Positions 55,787 through 61,770 of a DNA stretch of 64,000 nt are shown piece by piece. This DNA is from Pseudomonas fulva NBRC 16637 = DSM 17717 (GTDB lineage: Bacteria; Pseudomonadota; Gammaproteobacteria; Pseudomonadales; Pseudomonadaceae), in NCBI RefSeq assembly GCF_000730565.1, contig NZ_BBIQ01000006.1, positions 124,001-188,000 on the forward strand, in the 5' to 3' direction. The notes under the pieces were generated by a model, which had not been told where the DNA came from, did no database searches, and saw only the letters and a program-made list of their open reading frames with translations. The first letter of the stretch is position 1. Every line of letters begins with the position of its first letter. The position numbers and the translations under genes were made by a program.

Positions 55787-56125
55787 TGCGTGAGTCTCCA
55801 TGCGGCAAGGCGAAAACAAGCGTAGCGGTGAGGGGTCATGTATCTGGGACTGATGAAAGGCGTGAGGGTTTTATCTCAGGGGGAGGATAGCCAAGAATTT
55901 CCCGCGTCTGGGTGCGTTTGGCTCGTCATGCTCACTCGGTGCATCCCTTACGCACCCCTACCATCAAGCCCATCGGCGGCCCTGCAAGGCTCTGAATAGA
56001 GCCTTTGACGCCTGATATCAATGGGGTCGATTTTTACCATTACCCGGATGAACTTCTCTGTGCAGGTGCGAGGCGTAGCATTGGCTACACACCCACTTTC
56101 CAGCCCCGCAGAGGAGCACCGAATC
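55787..56125. other. Intergenic region, no gene seen
   Basis: 339 bases between the divergent asmA-like gene and the secreted repeat gene. More AT-rich near 55850-55900 and 56000-56050. Promoters for both genes are expected but no clear match or structure was found. Confidence 0.5.
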
Positions 56126-56443
56126 ATGAAACGCCACCTGTTGACCCTCACCTTTTCCTTGCTTGCAGCCAATGCGTTCGCCCTGCCAGGTGCCGAGCAG
56201 CACCTGACGGCCGAATCGCGTTCGAGCGCTGCTCAAACCATCCAACCACTTGAAACACTCGCCGAAGGCGGCTCCGACCGGTTGATCGAGCGCAGCGCCC
56301 GTGTTGCCGAAGGGGGTTCCGACCGCCTGATCGAGCGCAGCGCCCGTGTTGCCGAAGGGGGTTCCGATCGCCTGATCGAGCGCAGCGCCCGTGTCGCCGA
56401 GGGCGGTGCAGATCGCTTGTCGCAAACGGCACGGGTGAGCTGA
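56126..56443 (+). CDS. Small secreted protein with 15-residue tandem repeats
   Basis: 105 residues: signal to about 19 (ANAFA), a short spacer, then three full copies plus a fraction of the 15-residue unit AEGGSDRLIERSARV. GAGGAG lies upstream of the ATG. The charged repeat suggests an extended or amphipathic periplasmic protein. Similar Pseudomonas genes are annotated only as hypothetical; function unknown. Confidence 0.75.
   Translation: MKRHLLTLTFSLLAANAFALPGAEQHLTAESRSSAAQTIQPLETLAEGGSDRLIERSARVAEGGSDRLIERSARVAEGGSDRLIERSARVAEGGADRLSQTARVS
56258..56422 (+). repeat. 45-bp in-frame tandem repeat
   Basis: Copies at 56258-56302, 56303-56347 and 56348-56392, with a partial degenerate fourth. 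Copies 2 and 3 differ at one base (GAC/GAT), which suggests recent duplication; copy 1 differs at several third positions. Confidence 0.9.
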
Positions 56444-57195: not shown

Positions 57196-57257
57196 CGGGC
57201 TCGGCAGACCCGACTTCTGCTACCATGGCGCCCTGCCCGACAGCGACGAGCGCCAAG

Positions 57258-58358
57258 ATGTCCAACCCCCGCCCTACCCTGCCCGAACTGACCCGCTTCA
57301 ATCAGCACTTTGCCGCGTGCATCGTGCCCCTATGGCAGGGGCCAGGTTGGAACACCGAGATGGCGTTGCCTTACGAGGCCCTGGACGCCGAGCATCAGCC
57401 GCTGCCGGTGCAGCGCTATCGGGCCATGGCTTGCGCACGCCAGTTGTACCTGTTCAGCAGCCGCATCGGTCAACCGGGCGCGGCCGAACGCGCCGCGGCA
57501 TTGTTCCGCTCCTTGCAAAAGCACTTTCATGACCCCGAGCACGGTGGCTGGTTCTACAGCATCGACGCCCAGGGCAAACCGCTGGACCGACGCAAGGACC
57601 TCTATACCCACGCGTTCATCGTCTTCGCCTGCGCGCACTATTGGGGCCAGGTCCGCGACAGCCTGGTGGCCTCCACCCTGGCTGGTGCGCTGGACGTCAT
57701 CGAGCATCGCTTTGCCCGGGATGATGGCTTGTACGAGGCCAGTCTGGGTGAAGACTGGGGCAACCTGGGCAGTGGCGCGCTGCAAAACCCGCAGATGCAC
57801 CTGGCAGAGGCCTTCTTGCAGGTGTTGGCCGTGCGTGATGATCAGGCTGTGCAGCAATTGCTTCTACAGTTATGCACAGCGATGCAGGCCCACTTCATCG
57901 ACCCTGCCCACGGGGTGATGCTGGAAAAGCCCCGGGGCACTGTGGATAACTGGTTCGAGCCGGGTCATCAGTTCGAGTGGTTCTATTTGCTGCACACTTC
58001 GCCGCTGCTGCGTGGGACGGCGTTGCATGCGTCCATTGAGCGGGGCTTTGTTTTTGCCGAGCACCATGGCGTGAAGGACGAGGCGGTGCTGGCGATGCTG
58101 GATGTGCAAGGGCATGTGCTGGATGCGACTCAGCGGATCTGGGCACAGGCCGAATACGCCAGGGCCCTGGCATTGCGCCCTGATGCAGATGTAAAGCTGC
58201 CCAAGCTGTTGCAGGCCCTGCAGGGGCGGTTCTTGCGGCAAGCGGGATGGTATGAATGCCGGGACGGGCAAGGCGATGTCAGCCGGCATGATATGCCGTC
58301 GACTACGCCTTATCATCTGGCCACCTGCCTGGAAGGGTTGAAGCGATTGGAGGGGTGA
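57258..58358 (+). CDS. AGE-family sugar epimerase/isomerase
   Basis: 366 residues of the N-acylglucosamine 2-epimerase (alpha/alpha six-barrel) family: RQLYLFSSRIGQPG, DPEHGGWFYSIDAQGKP, KDLYTHAFIVFA and EPGHQFEWFYLL with the expected His residues. Mannose or glucose isomerase activity is likely; substrate unproven. Starts 63 bases after the regulator gene. Confidence 0.85.
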   Translation: MSNPRPTLPELTRFNQHFAACIVPLWQGPGWNTEMALPYEALDAEHQPLPVQRYRAMACARQLYLFSSRIGQPGAAERAAALFRSLQKHFHDPEHGGWFYSIDAQGKPLDRRKDLYTHAFIVFACAHYWGQVRDSLVASTLAGALDVIEHRFARDDGLYEASLGEDWGNLGSGALQNPQMHLAEAFLQVLAVRDDQAVQQLLLQLCTAMQAHFIDPAHGVMLEKPRGTVDNWFEPGHQFEWFYLLHTSPLLRGTALHASIERGFVFAEHHGVKDEAVLAMLDVQGHVLDATQRIWAQAEYARALALRPDADVKLPKLLQALQGRFLRQAGWYECRDGQGDVSRHDMPSTTPYHLATCLEGLKRLEG

Positions 58359-58866: not shown

Positions 58867-59451
58867 CGCGACTTCAGAAGGCCGAACGCAGGTCTTGCGG
58901 AGGGAGGTGACAGGCATGGATGCCTGTCAAGCGCTGGGCCCCAGGATGGGGCCTACAGCGCGGTCCTCCCGGGAGCAAGACCGGAGTGAGGGAACCCCGA
59001 AGCGCAGCGTAGGGGCCGTATGAACGGAGCGCAGCCTTTTTTGGTTACTTTTTGTGGCGTTTGACAAAAAGTAACTCGCCGTAAGGGCGAAAAGGTGATT
59101 AAGCGTCGCCATCGCAAATGGACTATGCGTCTCTATCAATACCCACACCAACCCATCGAACTTCAAACTTCAAAGCGTGGGCGCATATATCGAGTTGGTA
59201 TTCATTGGCGCGGGTGGCGCACAGTCACCCTTCCGCCCTTACGGCGGCTCACTTTTTGTCTTGGCAAAAAGTAAGCAAAAACCGCCTGCTCCTATCATCC
59301 GGCCCCTACGCTCCGCTCCGGGGTCCCCTCGCTCCGGGCTTGCTCCCGGGAGGACCGCGCTGCAGGCCCCATCCTGGGGCCCAGCGCTTGACGGGCATCC
59401 ATGCCCGTCACCTCCCTCCGCAAGCCCTGCGCTCGGCCTCCTGAAGTCGCG
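58867..59451. repeat. Large imperfect inverted repeat (arms about 240 bp)
   Basis: The left arm (58867 to about 59110) and right arm (about 59213-59451) match in inverted orientation. Both share CGCGACTTCAG at the outer ends, then GGAGGGAGGTGAC, CAAGCGCTGGGCCCCAGGAT and CGCGGTCCTCCCGGGAGCAA, and end inward at CAAAAAGT and CGCCGTAAGGGCG. The spacer is about 100 bases. No transposase is present. Probably a dispersed Pseudomonas repeat in head-to-head array. Confidence 0.8.
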
Positions 59452-60408: not shown

Positions 60409-60489
60409 GCAGTGTTCCTCACGTAAGAGATCCTGGGTGAAACCGCAGCATGCCCGTGCCCGATGCGCCGGGCAAGTCGTCACGCGCAC

Positions 60490-60506
60490 TGATCGTTTTT
60501 TGATCA
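60490..60506 (+). promoter_or_regulatory. 17-bp site, left copy of an inverted pair
   Basis: TGATCGTTTTTTGATCA, itself a TGATC-N7-GATCA inverted repeat, 82 bases upstream of the SDR start. Its exact reverse complement occurs at 60788-60804. Operator-like; the regulator is unknown. Confidence 0.5.
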
Positions 60507-60555
60507 ACACACTGAAGGCCGCATATACACTGGGCTACAGCCACCTATGAGCACC

Positions 60556-60966
60556 TTATCCACAAGCCTTTCCCCGCCAATTGGGGGCAACTGCGGCACC
60601 AGGCGGAACCCTTTCAGCCTTACACGGTCTCGCCTGCCTTTTTCAACCGCGCCAATTCCTTTATCCCATGCCGCATCCAGACGTCTGTCCAACGCTTTTC
60701 CACAACCTTATCCACAGGCGTACGGGTTTATGACATCACCCTTGAAAAGTACTAGTCAGGTAGCGATATCGTCATGCAGCTAGATCCTGATCAAAAAACG
60801 ATCAAGTCTATGGAGCCCCTGAATTCCTTGTCTTGGAGAAAGATGCCACCATGTTTTCCACAGGCACCTCCACACGAACGGTGGACTAAATCAGGCTGTG
60901 GGTAACAAAGGTTGGCCAGTCGCTTCGAGCCTGTGCATAAGCCCGAGGCCGTGGCAGTTGTCCACA
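60556..60966. promoter_or_regulatory. DnaA-box cluster
   Basis: Perfect TTATNCACA matches at 60556-60564 and 60708-60716 (TTATCCACA, plus) and 60932-60940 (TTATGCACA, minus). One-mismatch boxes: 60696-60704 and 60854-60862 (TTTTCCACA), 60897-60905 (TTACCCACA, minus) and 60958-60966 (TTGTCCACA). Seven in 411 bases. The dnaA/rpmH genes are absent, so this is not the known origin position. Confidence 0.65.
60788..60804 (-). promoter_or_regulatory. 17-bp site, right copy of an inverted pair
   Basis: TGATCAAAAAACGATCA, the exact reverse complement of the site at 60490-60506, 298 bases away. It lies between two DnaA-like boxes. Confidence 0.5.
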
Positions 60967-61053: not shown

Positions 61054-61770
61054 TCAGTGCCCGCCCAAGTAAGCGCTGCGCACCTCTTCATTGACCAGCA
61101 ACTCCTGGCCCGTACCCGTCATGCGTATCTGCCCGTTGACCATCACGTAAGCCCGGTCCGACAGCTTCAACGCGTGGTTGGCGTTCTGCTCGACCAGAAA
61201 GATGGTCATGCCCGTCTTGGCCAGCTCGCGCAGGGTGGCGAAGATTTGTTTGACGACGATGGGCGCCAGCCCGAGCGAAGGCTCATCCAGAAGCAGCAGC
61301 CGAGGCCGGCTCATCAAGGCGCGGGCGATGGCCAGCATCTGCTGCTCGCCCCCCGACATGGTCATGGCGCGCTGATTGCGTCGCTCCTTCAAACGTGGAA
61401 ACAACGTATACATCCGCTGCATGTCCTCGTCGGCATGCTTGTCGCCGATGGGGATGGTGCCCATCATCAGGTTTTCTTCGACACTCATGTCCGGGAACAC
61501 CCGCCGCCCTTCCGGCGACTGGGCGATGCCGTTGGCGGCAATGTAGTGCGAGGACTTGCGGGTGATGTCGGTGCCCCGGTAGATGATCTGGCCGGAAGCG
61601 GCGCGGGGCTGCCCGAAAATGGACATCAACAAGGTGGACTTGCCCGCCCCGTTGGCACCGATCAGGCTCACCGTCTCACCTTCGTCGATGTGCATGGACA
61701 CCTGCTTCAGGGCCTGGATGGGGCCGTAGAACACATCCAGGTCCTTCAATTCCAGAATGGGTGCAGTCAT
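61054..61770 (-). CDS. livF: Branched-chain amino acid ABC transporter ATPase LivF/BraG
   Basis: 238 residues: Walker A GANGAGKST, signature MSGGEQQMLAIARAL, Walker B LLLLDEPSLGLAP. The start overlaps livG by 4 bases (ATGA). Confidence 0.94.
   Translation of the reverse strand: MTAPILELKDLDVFYGPIQALKQVSMHIDEGETVSLIGANGAGKSTLLMSIFGQPRAASGQIIYRGTDITRKSSHYIAANGIAQSPEGRRVFPDMSVEENLMMGTIPIGDKHADEDMQRMYTLFPRLKERRNQRAMTMSGGEQQMLAIARALMSRPRLLLLDEPSLGLAPIVVKQIFATLRELAKTGMTIFLVEQNANHALKLSDRAYVMVNGQIRMTGTGQELLVNEEVRSAYLGGH

Follow-up and report, generated by a model that had tools for sequence, protein, structure and literature searches.

A probable DARS-type DnaA-regulating locus beside livF in Pseudomonas fulva and units of the same layout elsewhere in the genus

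To our knowledge, E. coli is the only organism in which the control of initiation by recharging of DnaA has been worked out in detail. In strain MG1655, DARS1 lies in the bioD–uvrB gap and DARS2 in the gap before mutH. As described in PMC8682772 and PMC10380432, the two sites share a core of three DnaA boxes in which boxes I and II stand in opposing orientation, and DARS2 is activated by Fis and IHF; according to the second of these sources, this facing pair is both typical of DARS and indispensable to it. In the account of PMC8682772, DARS2 further has a strong extra box together with head-to-tail weak boxes, the box V cluster. Two reviews, of which PMC10380432 is one, state that a number of gammaproteobacteria, or many proteobacteria, possess DARS-like sequences. 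We found no report of DARS-type sites in Pseudomonas in the open-access literature (most subscription journals lay outside the search); their presence in this genus may have been noted in a 2009 paper which those reviews cite. The genus is not named in PMC12371093, PMC4245941, PMC10380432 or PMC4585315, and where PMC4285127, PMC4451416 and PMC6784150 name it they treat different subjects. In this work we have analysed a window, that is, a whole stretch of 64 kb of P. fulva DNA, in which a cluster of DnaA boxes lies beside livF. Judged by its sequence, this stretch is probably a DARS-type DnaA-regulating locus which consists of two tandem units and a head-to-tail array of boxes between them.

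The box cluster beside livF

An earlier reading of the sequence without database searches had reported three exact and four one-mismatch DnaA boxes within 411 bp, in an intergenic region 3' of livF. A pattern scan located all seven at the places reported: the exact boxes TTATNCACA begin at 60556 (+), 60708 (+) and 60932 (-), and the one-mismatch boxes at 60696 (+), 60854 (+), 60897 (-) and 60958 (+). Two of the latter four read TTTTCCACA and thereby agree with the broader consensus TT[A/T]TNCACA. The region is the gap between livF and a short-chain dehydrogenase gene. That reading had also likened nearby T-rich GATC sites to the 13-mers of oriC; they are better read as two copies of a 17-bp Fis-type palindrome, at 60490-60506 and 60788-60804, which are perfect inverted repeats of each other. 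The first copy lies outside the 411 bp originally singled out, and the stretch which belongs together runs from about 60490 to 60966. The parts given below were placed by pattern scan, by a unit PWM built partly from livF-flank loci, and by R2, a model made from 62 Pseudomonadales sequences with E. coli left out.

60408, - strand: placed ATG of the short-chain dehydrogenase gene (Pfam adh_short)
60490..60590, + strand: putative DARS-type unit 1, whole (unit PWM 90.2 bits)
60487-60592: match of R2 to unit 1 (62.6 bits, E 1.5e-18; the sequence itself is in R2)
60490..60506: Fis-type palindrome of unit 1, TGATCGTTTTTTGATCA, starting 66 bp before box III
60512..60540: dyad of unit 1, CTGAAGGCC-N11-GGGCTACAG
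60556..60564, + strand: DnaA box III of unit 1, TTATCCACA, exact
60568..60576, + strand: box II position of unit 1, CTTTCCCCG, weak with 3 mismatches, placed by the unit spacing
60582..60590, - strand: box I position of unit 1, reversed, TTGCCCCCA, weak with 3 mismatches, placed by the unit spacing
60684..60716, + strand: three box-like 9-mers TCTGTCCAA, TTTTCCACA and TTATCCACA, head to tail in 12-bp steps, between the units
60788..60888, + strand: putative DARS-type unit 2, whole (unit PWM 84.1 bits)
60785-60888: match of R2 to unit 2 (63.3 bits, E 9.3e-19; the sequence itself is in R2)
60788..60804: Fis-type palindrome of unit 2, TGATCAAAAAACGATCA
60810..60838: dyad of unit 2, degenerate in this genome
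60854..60862, + strand: DnaA box III of unit 2, TTTTCCACA, one mismatch
60866..60874, + strand: box II position of unit 2, ACCTCCACA, 3 mismatches
60880..60888, - strand: box I position of unit 2, reversed, TAGTCCACC, 3 mismatches
60897..60905, - strand: DnaA-like box TTACCCACA, one mismatch
60932..60940, - strand: exact DnaA box TTATGCACA, common to the relative of highest LivF identity (L012)
60958..60966, + strand: box TTGTCCACA, 104 bp after box III of unit 2
61054-61770, - strand: livF (Pfam ABC_tran; the gene name comes from the sequence-only reading)

Units 1 and 2 are the only matches of the unit PWM of at least 12 bits in the window. The window holds five exact boxes where shuffled sequence gives 0.48, and 20 sites with at most one mismatch, the exact ones included, where 16.7 are expected; the latter count alone is ordinary. 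The draft genome of 4.77 Mb (G000) contains 96 exact boxes, compared with 23 occurrences of the reversed control pattern. A uniform spread would yield about 0.001 windows of 411 bp with at least three exact boxes, and there are four such places only: the livF cluster, oriC with seven boxes, C46:46778 and C46:58919. The genome-wide count, which had been proposed as a check, thus makes the cluster an outlier. Taken together, the counts in the window and in the genome rule out a chance origin of the cluster.

Several further observations concern boxes and other elements in this genome. A facing pair of exact boxes lies at 57870-57949, 2.6 kb from the cluster, inside a reading frame of 377 codons (57225-58358). 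The origin is found in contig C46 at about 28.8-29.1 kb, and 35 of the 96 exact TTATNCACA boxes fall within the 78 kb round it (C46:1-78000), a density of one per 2.2 kb compared with one per 77 kb elsewhere. In the window, two matches to the TwoAYGGAY RNA, at 58906-58965 (+) and 59353-59412 (-), score 41.6 and 38.8 bits, the gathering score being 43, and a reading frame at 56021-56443 encodes a product with a repeated 15-residue peptide of the VAEGGSDRLIERSAR type.

The unit across loci and genomes

Is the arrangement kept in relatives? LivF was found in 130 of the 149 genomes of the genus (E 1e-100), and we took the 3' flanks of 80 of these genes, with single-contig genomes and close relatives favoured. 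The positions of the boxes recur at fixed spacing, despite much divergence of the gap. A DNA-level search with the whole gap matched only 8 of 57 genomes, its own included, and most of the matching pieces lie on the motifs. Scored with the unit PWM, 70 flanks have two units, four have three or more and six have none. The sequence-only reading was to fall if the boxes were not conserved in close relatives; with at least two units in 74 of the 80 flanks, it withstands that test. In 560 kb of other sequence (28 stretches of G000 and of G241, a genome of another genus in the same family), the PWM gave no match of 10 bits. A unit is present at 27 of 80 named loci (many of the 80 being paralogues from other genera), and these 27 include the loci of P. 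putida 31753, P. fluorescens ISL-62, P. fragi D12 and P. lurida 114A4. As regards the array, a loose pattern places a box 12 bp ahead of a TTATCCACA in 66 of the 80 flanks. The sequence TT[T/G]TCCACA was seen at a spacing of about 104 bp after box III in 61 flanks, which were chosen for having it.

The unit is not confined to livF. R1, a sequence-only model of the core, matches all 148 genomes of the genus in which it was run (E 0.01), and part of it matches several further places in most of them. When the places matched by R1 in six genomes and in G000 were aligned, one rigid unit emerged. Its parts include a palindrome TGNTCAAAAAAYGANCA, which begins 66 bp ahead of a strong box TTATCCACA (box III), and a dyad (GCC...GGCCT), whose end is 15 bp ahead of that box. 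At +12 there is a weak box and at +26 a reversed one, so that the core reads III-N3-II-N5-I with box I reversed. For 46 register-fitting units away from livF, of which at least one (L100, 8001-8112) looks like chance, the best offset for a reversed box was +26, with a mean of 7.15 of 9 letters (offset mean 3.1). This offset was again the best in 144 units of the livF locus (6.09), where +12 was also the best offset for a second forward box (6.42). Among the 46 units, +12 was only the third-best forward offset besides the strong box, behind +25 and -2.

Conservation within the unit is highest at the strong box, and the dyad and the palindrome are placed as rigidly as the boxes. The palindrome stands in a single register in 193 of 228 scored units; the entry condition was a score of 6 of 8 anywhere within offsets -3 to +3, and some of the 228 are chance. 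Compared with the Fis consensus GnnYAnnnnnTRnnC, as given in PMC8682772, the palindrome has no mismatch or a single one in 44 of the 46 and 138 of the 144 units, the score by which they were selected sharing most of these positions. It is also close to the footprinted P. putida Fis site TGGATCAAAAATGAAACAAT quoted in PMC5612765. Pairing within the dyad was 0.48 in the 46 units, compared with 0.22-0.28 in shifted registers, and 0.46 compared with 0.21-0.30 in the 144 units. No consistent covariation was found in either set. A dyad which is symmetric but shows no consistent covariation suits a bound protein and not an RNA stem; as a search of Rfam gave no match at the element either, an RNA gene was ruled out.

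Two variants were noticed on the side. Another DARS-type unit (L225-L230; in G000 at C45:174 kb, L286) has its palindrome at -55 and not at -66, about one helical turn shorter, an offset read by script for L286 and by eye for two others; in six of 15 genomes its distance from dnaA is about 35-40% of the genome. In G000, a dyad half resembling that of the unit, GGCCTTCAG, stands a few bases before TTATCCACA, with no Fis-type palindrome, at C46:29075 in oriC and at C46:33561, in the gap before an mnmG-like gene named by eye.

Where do the units lie on the chromosome? In 15 single-contig genomes there are 9-14 R1 matches each and 172 in total, of which 150 are listed, the weakest being absent. 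Of these 150, 130 lie within 15% of the genome from dnaA, as do 102 of the 113 listed matches with E 1e-5 or better. Most recurring loci are 5-15% of the genome from dnaA, on both arms round it in most of the 15 genomes. The locus at livF is 9.2-12% from dnaA in 14 of them; the exception is G029, in which it is 34% away and all loci are on one arm. According to E. coli work described in PMC5010248, relocating the DARS and datA loci alters cell-cycle control and fitness, and this is a possible reason for the conserved positions.

By their neighbours the recurring loci can be told apart as A (livF and the dehydrogenase gene), B (UPF0029), C (histone-deacetylase-like and HI0933-like genes), D (an EamA transporter) and E (GMC oxidoreductase, GNAT and ETF genes), the neighbours having been assigned with Pfam in G010 and the window only and by eye or distance in the other genomes. 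Not all five occur in each genome: no B is listed for G142 and no E for G112, which has B and C on exchanged arms at similar distances. In G000, contig C35 carries the UPF0029-type locus B and C41:73 kb the HI0933-like locus C, as judged by neighbours (by eye) and sequence likeness. R1 also matched all of 11 further single-contig genomes, seven of which have no LivF at E 1e-100. The dnaA gene of G241 was not found in the 240 kb examined, and the loci of this genome are thus unplaced. As a separate observation, G015, G086, G112, G125 and G131 have matches to the array part of R1, mostly without a Fis–core unit, at one further origin-proximal distance, about 5-6% of the genome away from dnaA.

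R2 reaches beyond the genus. At E 1e-4 it matches 125 of 135 genomes in a sample of the order, 155 of 229 in one of the class and 58 of 150 in one of the phylum. At this threshold the model lacks specificity, as it picks up 34 of about 113 genomes of other classes, in many cases by the box part only (the figure of 113 assumes that 72 unlisted rows belong to other classes). At E 1e-8 there are matches in 60 of 130 genomes of the order outside the family, six of which gave sequences to R2, in 40 of about 226 of the class outside the order and in one of about 113 of other classes. Gammaproteobacteria of other orders in the phylum sample matched at this threshold in only one of 20 cases, fewer than in the class sample. 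Most other families have 1-4 R2 matches per genome, at most 8, compared with nine in G000 and 18-20 in G241, G269 and G630, which belong to another genus of the same family. We inspected 26 loci (L247-L272), selected as the best R2 matches besides those of G000 and G241; seven of them are in R2, L253 is from the same genus, and L248 and L250 are from the same family. They show 0-5 mismatches in the 24 core positions, and all have a Fis-type palindrome at -66 or -67. Box II is an exact TTATCCACA in 16 of the 17 loci from other families outside R2, which does not demand it. We also considered that the core might be mirrored in other families, and this was disproved. By R2, loci of like layout, one to a few per genome, are present in many other Pseudomonadales and in some other gammaproteobacteria.

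What the locus may do

The sequence-only reading had proposed either a locus for titration or regeneration of DnaA or a cryptic secondary origin. The first proposal is supported, and its regeneration branch fits best, given the core spacing of DARS and the Fis-type site at a fixed distance. We read the locus as a DARS-type site which would help to reload DnaA with ATP, probably with the assistance of Fis. DnaA on boxes III and II, which share one orientation, would meet DnaA on box I head to head, and this contact would make ADP-DnaA release its ADP and be reloaded with ATP, as described for E. coli DARS. Fis, bound at one fixed distance and on roughly the same helical face, would assist this step or set its timing. 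It may be that the array between the units gathers ATP-DnaA and exerts feedback on Fis, in the manner of box V at E. coli DARS2. Since most of the loci are this close to dnaA (5-15% of the genome), they would double in copy number shortly after initiation, and the supply of DnaA would be tied to the passage of the fork. The boxes would titrate DnaA too.

Could the locus restrain initiation instead? In a site of the datA type DnaA would collect there and its ATP would be hydrolysed, or DnaA would be plainly titrated. The number of boxes speaks for this, as does the origin-proximal position, which is like that of datA; in addition, 35 of the 96 exact boxes are crowded into the 78 kb round oriC, a pattern which PMC12371093 reports for E. 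coli and connects with titration. However, head-to-head boxes at N5 are a hallmark of DARS and not a feature of datA as described in PMC10380432, and the helper described for datA is IHF, whereas the fixed partner site here is of the Fis type. We consider a datA-type function rather unlikely. A cryptic or secondary origin, as the sequence-only reading had suggested, would also explain a cluster of DnaA boxes, and PMC4285127 cites a paper whose title speaks of testing two putative P. aeruginosa origins. Yet the units occur at several loci per genome, the stretch contains no A+T-rich unwinding region (it has 52.6% G+C, with 40% in the lowest 60-bp stretch), and the unit PWM has no match in the dnaA-side stretches of six relatives or in the oriC stretch of G000 (L093). 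This proposal is not supported, and it is extremely improbable that an origin is present here.

The position of unit 1, just upstream of the dehydrogenase gene, raises the question of a promoter of this gene or of livF under the control of DnaA and Fis, both of which are able to act on transcription. All 69 flanks with the dehydrogenase gene have units, and the six flanks without units all lack the gene within 3.5 kb. But units are still carried by five of the 11 flanks without the gene within this distance, and DARS-type units adjoin unrelated genes at the other loci. Moreover, four of the six genomes with unit-less flanks (G023, G071, G098 and G151) have a strong element elsewhere, which in G071 and G098 is just beyond the fetched stretch; G008 and G168 have weaker matches only. 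A promoter element is thus unlikely, to the point that we would be surprised to find one. Perhaps, then, the sites serve another conserved protein which binds the dyad or the palindrome and organises the origin-proximal chromosome, and the DnaA boxes are secondary. The rigid placing of dyad and palindrome would suit such a protein, and so would the loci on both arms round dnaA in most of the 15 genomes. On the other hand, no part is better conserved than the strong box, and in most of the listed loci from outside the family box II has turned into an exact DnaA box; this explanation seems to us very improbable.

Returning to the DARS-type reading, we can tentatively extend it, to a picture which is possible but which we hold with some doubt. 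Pseudomonas would have multiplied the DARS-type element to about ten composite units of Fis site, dyad and DnaA boxes, or up to twenty in a sister genus, at a handful of loci round oriC. Recharging would then rise stepwise with the passage of the forks, a protein would sit on the central dyad, and the unit of a Fis site 66 bp from the core would be an old gammaproteobacterial form of DARS. If Pseudomonas does use such arrays at set distances from oriC, the genus would offer a second system, with built-in variation in copy number, for asking why these loci lie where they do. It would also supply concrete loci for study, together with a conserved dyad whose binder could be found.

Comparison with DARS1, DARS2 and datA

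The closest likeness is to the E. coli DARS sites. When DARS1 is read in reverse in the MG1655 sequence, its boxes fall at 0, +12 and +26, which is the III-N3-II-N5-I spacing, with box I reversed, of the Pseudomonas unit. R2, which contains no E. coli sequence, finds DARS1 of MG1655 with a partial match of 23.5 bits (E 2.4e-6 in 70 kb); the alignment spans the region of the dyad and the core, but not the Fis part. DARS1 also differs in being a single unit with no array, in its strong box II and in its neighbours. The core of DARS2 has the same spacing as the Pseudomonas unit and Fis participates in its function, although with R2 it gave only 9.1 bits (E 0.075), which is not a significant match. 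The sole exact Fis match in the DARS2 gap is on the side of box I, whereas the Pseudomonas palindrome is on the side of box III, and DARS2 has the IHF sites IBS1-2. The Pseudomonas units have the three-box geometry of DARS and its box quality in part, boxes II and I having three mismatches each in this genome: box III is strong and boxes II and I are weak, whereas DARS1 and DARS2 of E. coli have an exact TTATCCACA at box II. In the rppH–mutH gap of MG1655 we also noticed a second arrangement resembling a DARS core (L223, about 2636-2670), TTCTTCACA-N3-CTATCCACA-N5-reversed box with three mismatches, about 320 bp from the core near mutH.

With datA the locus shares its non-coding nature, its DnaA boxes and its proximity to the origin. 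The site described in PMC10380432, however, is based on IHF, has an IHF site at a set distance from the essential boxes 2, 3 and 7 in a box layout different from that of the livF element, and is given no head-to-head N5 pair in that account. Lastly, a concentration of boxes near oriC is common to Pseudomonas and to E. coli as treated in PMC12371093; the enrichment described there is one in the density of single boxes, whereas in Pseudomonas it is composite units that are repeated, at recurring loci.
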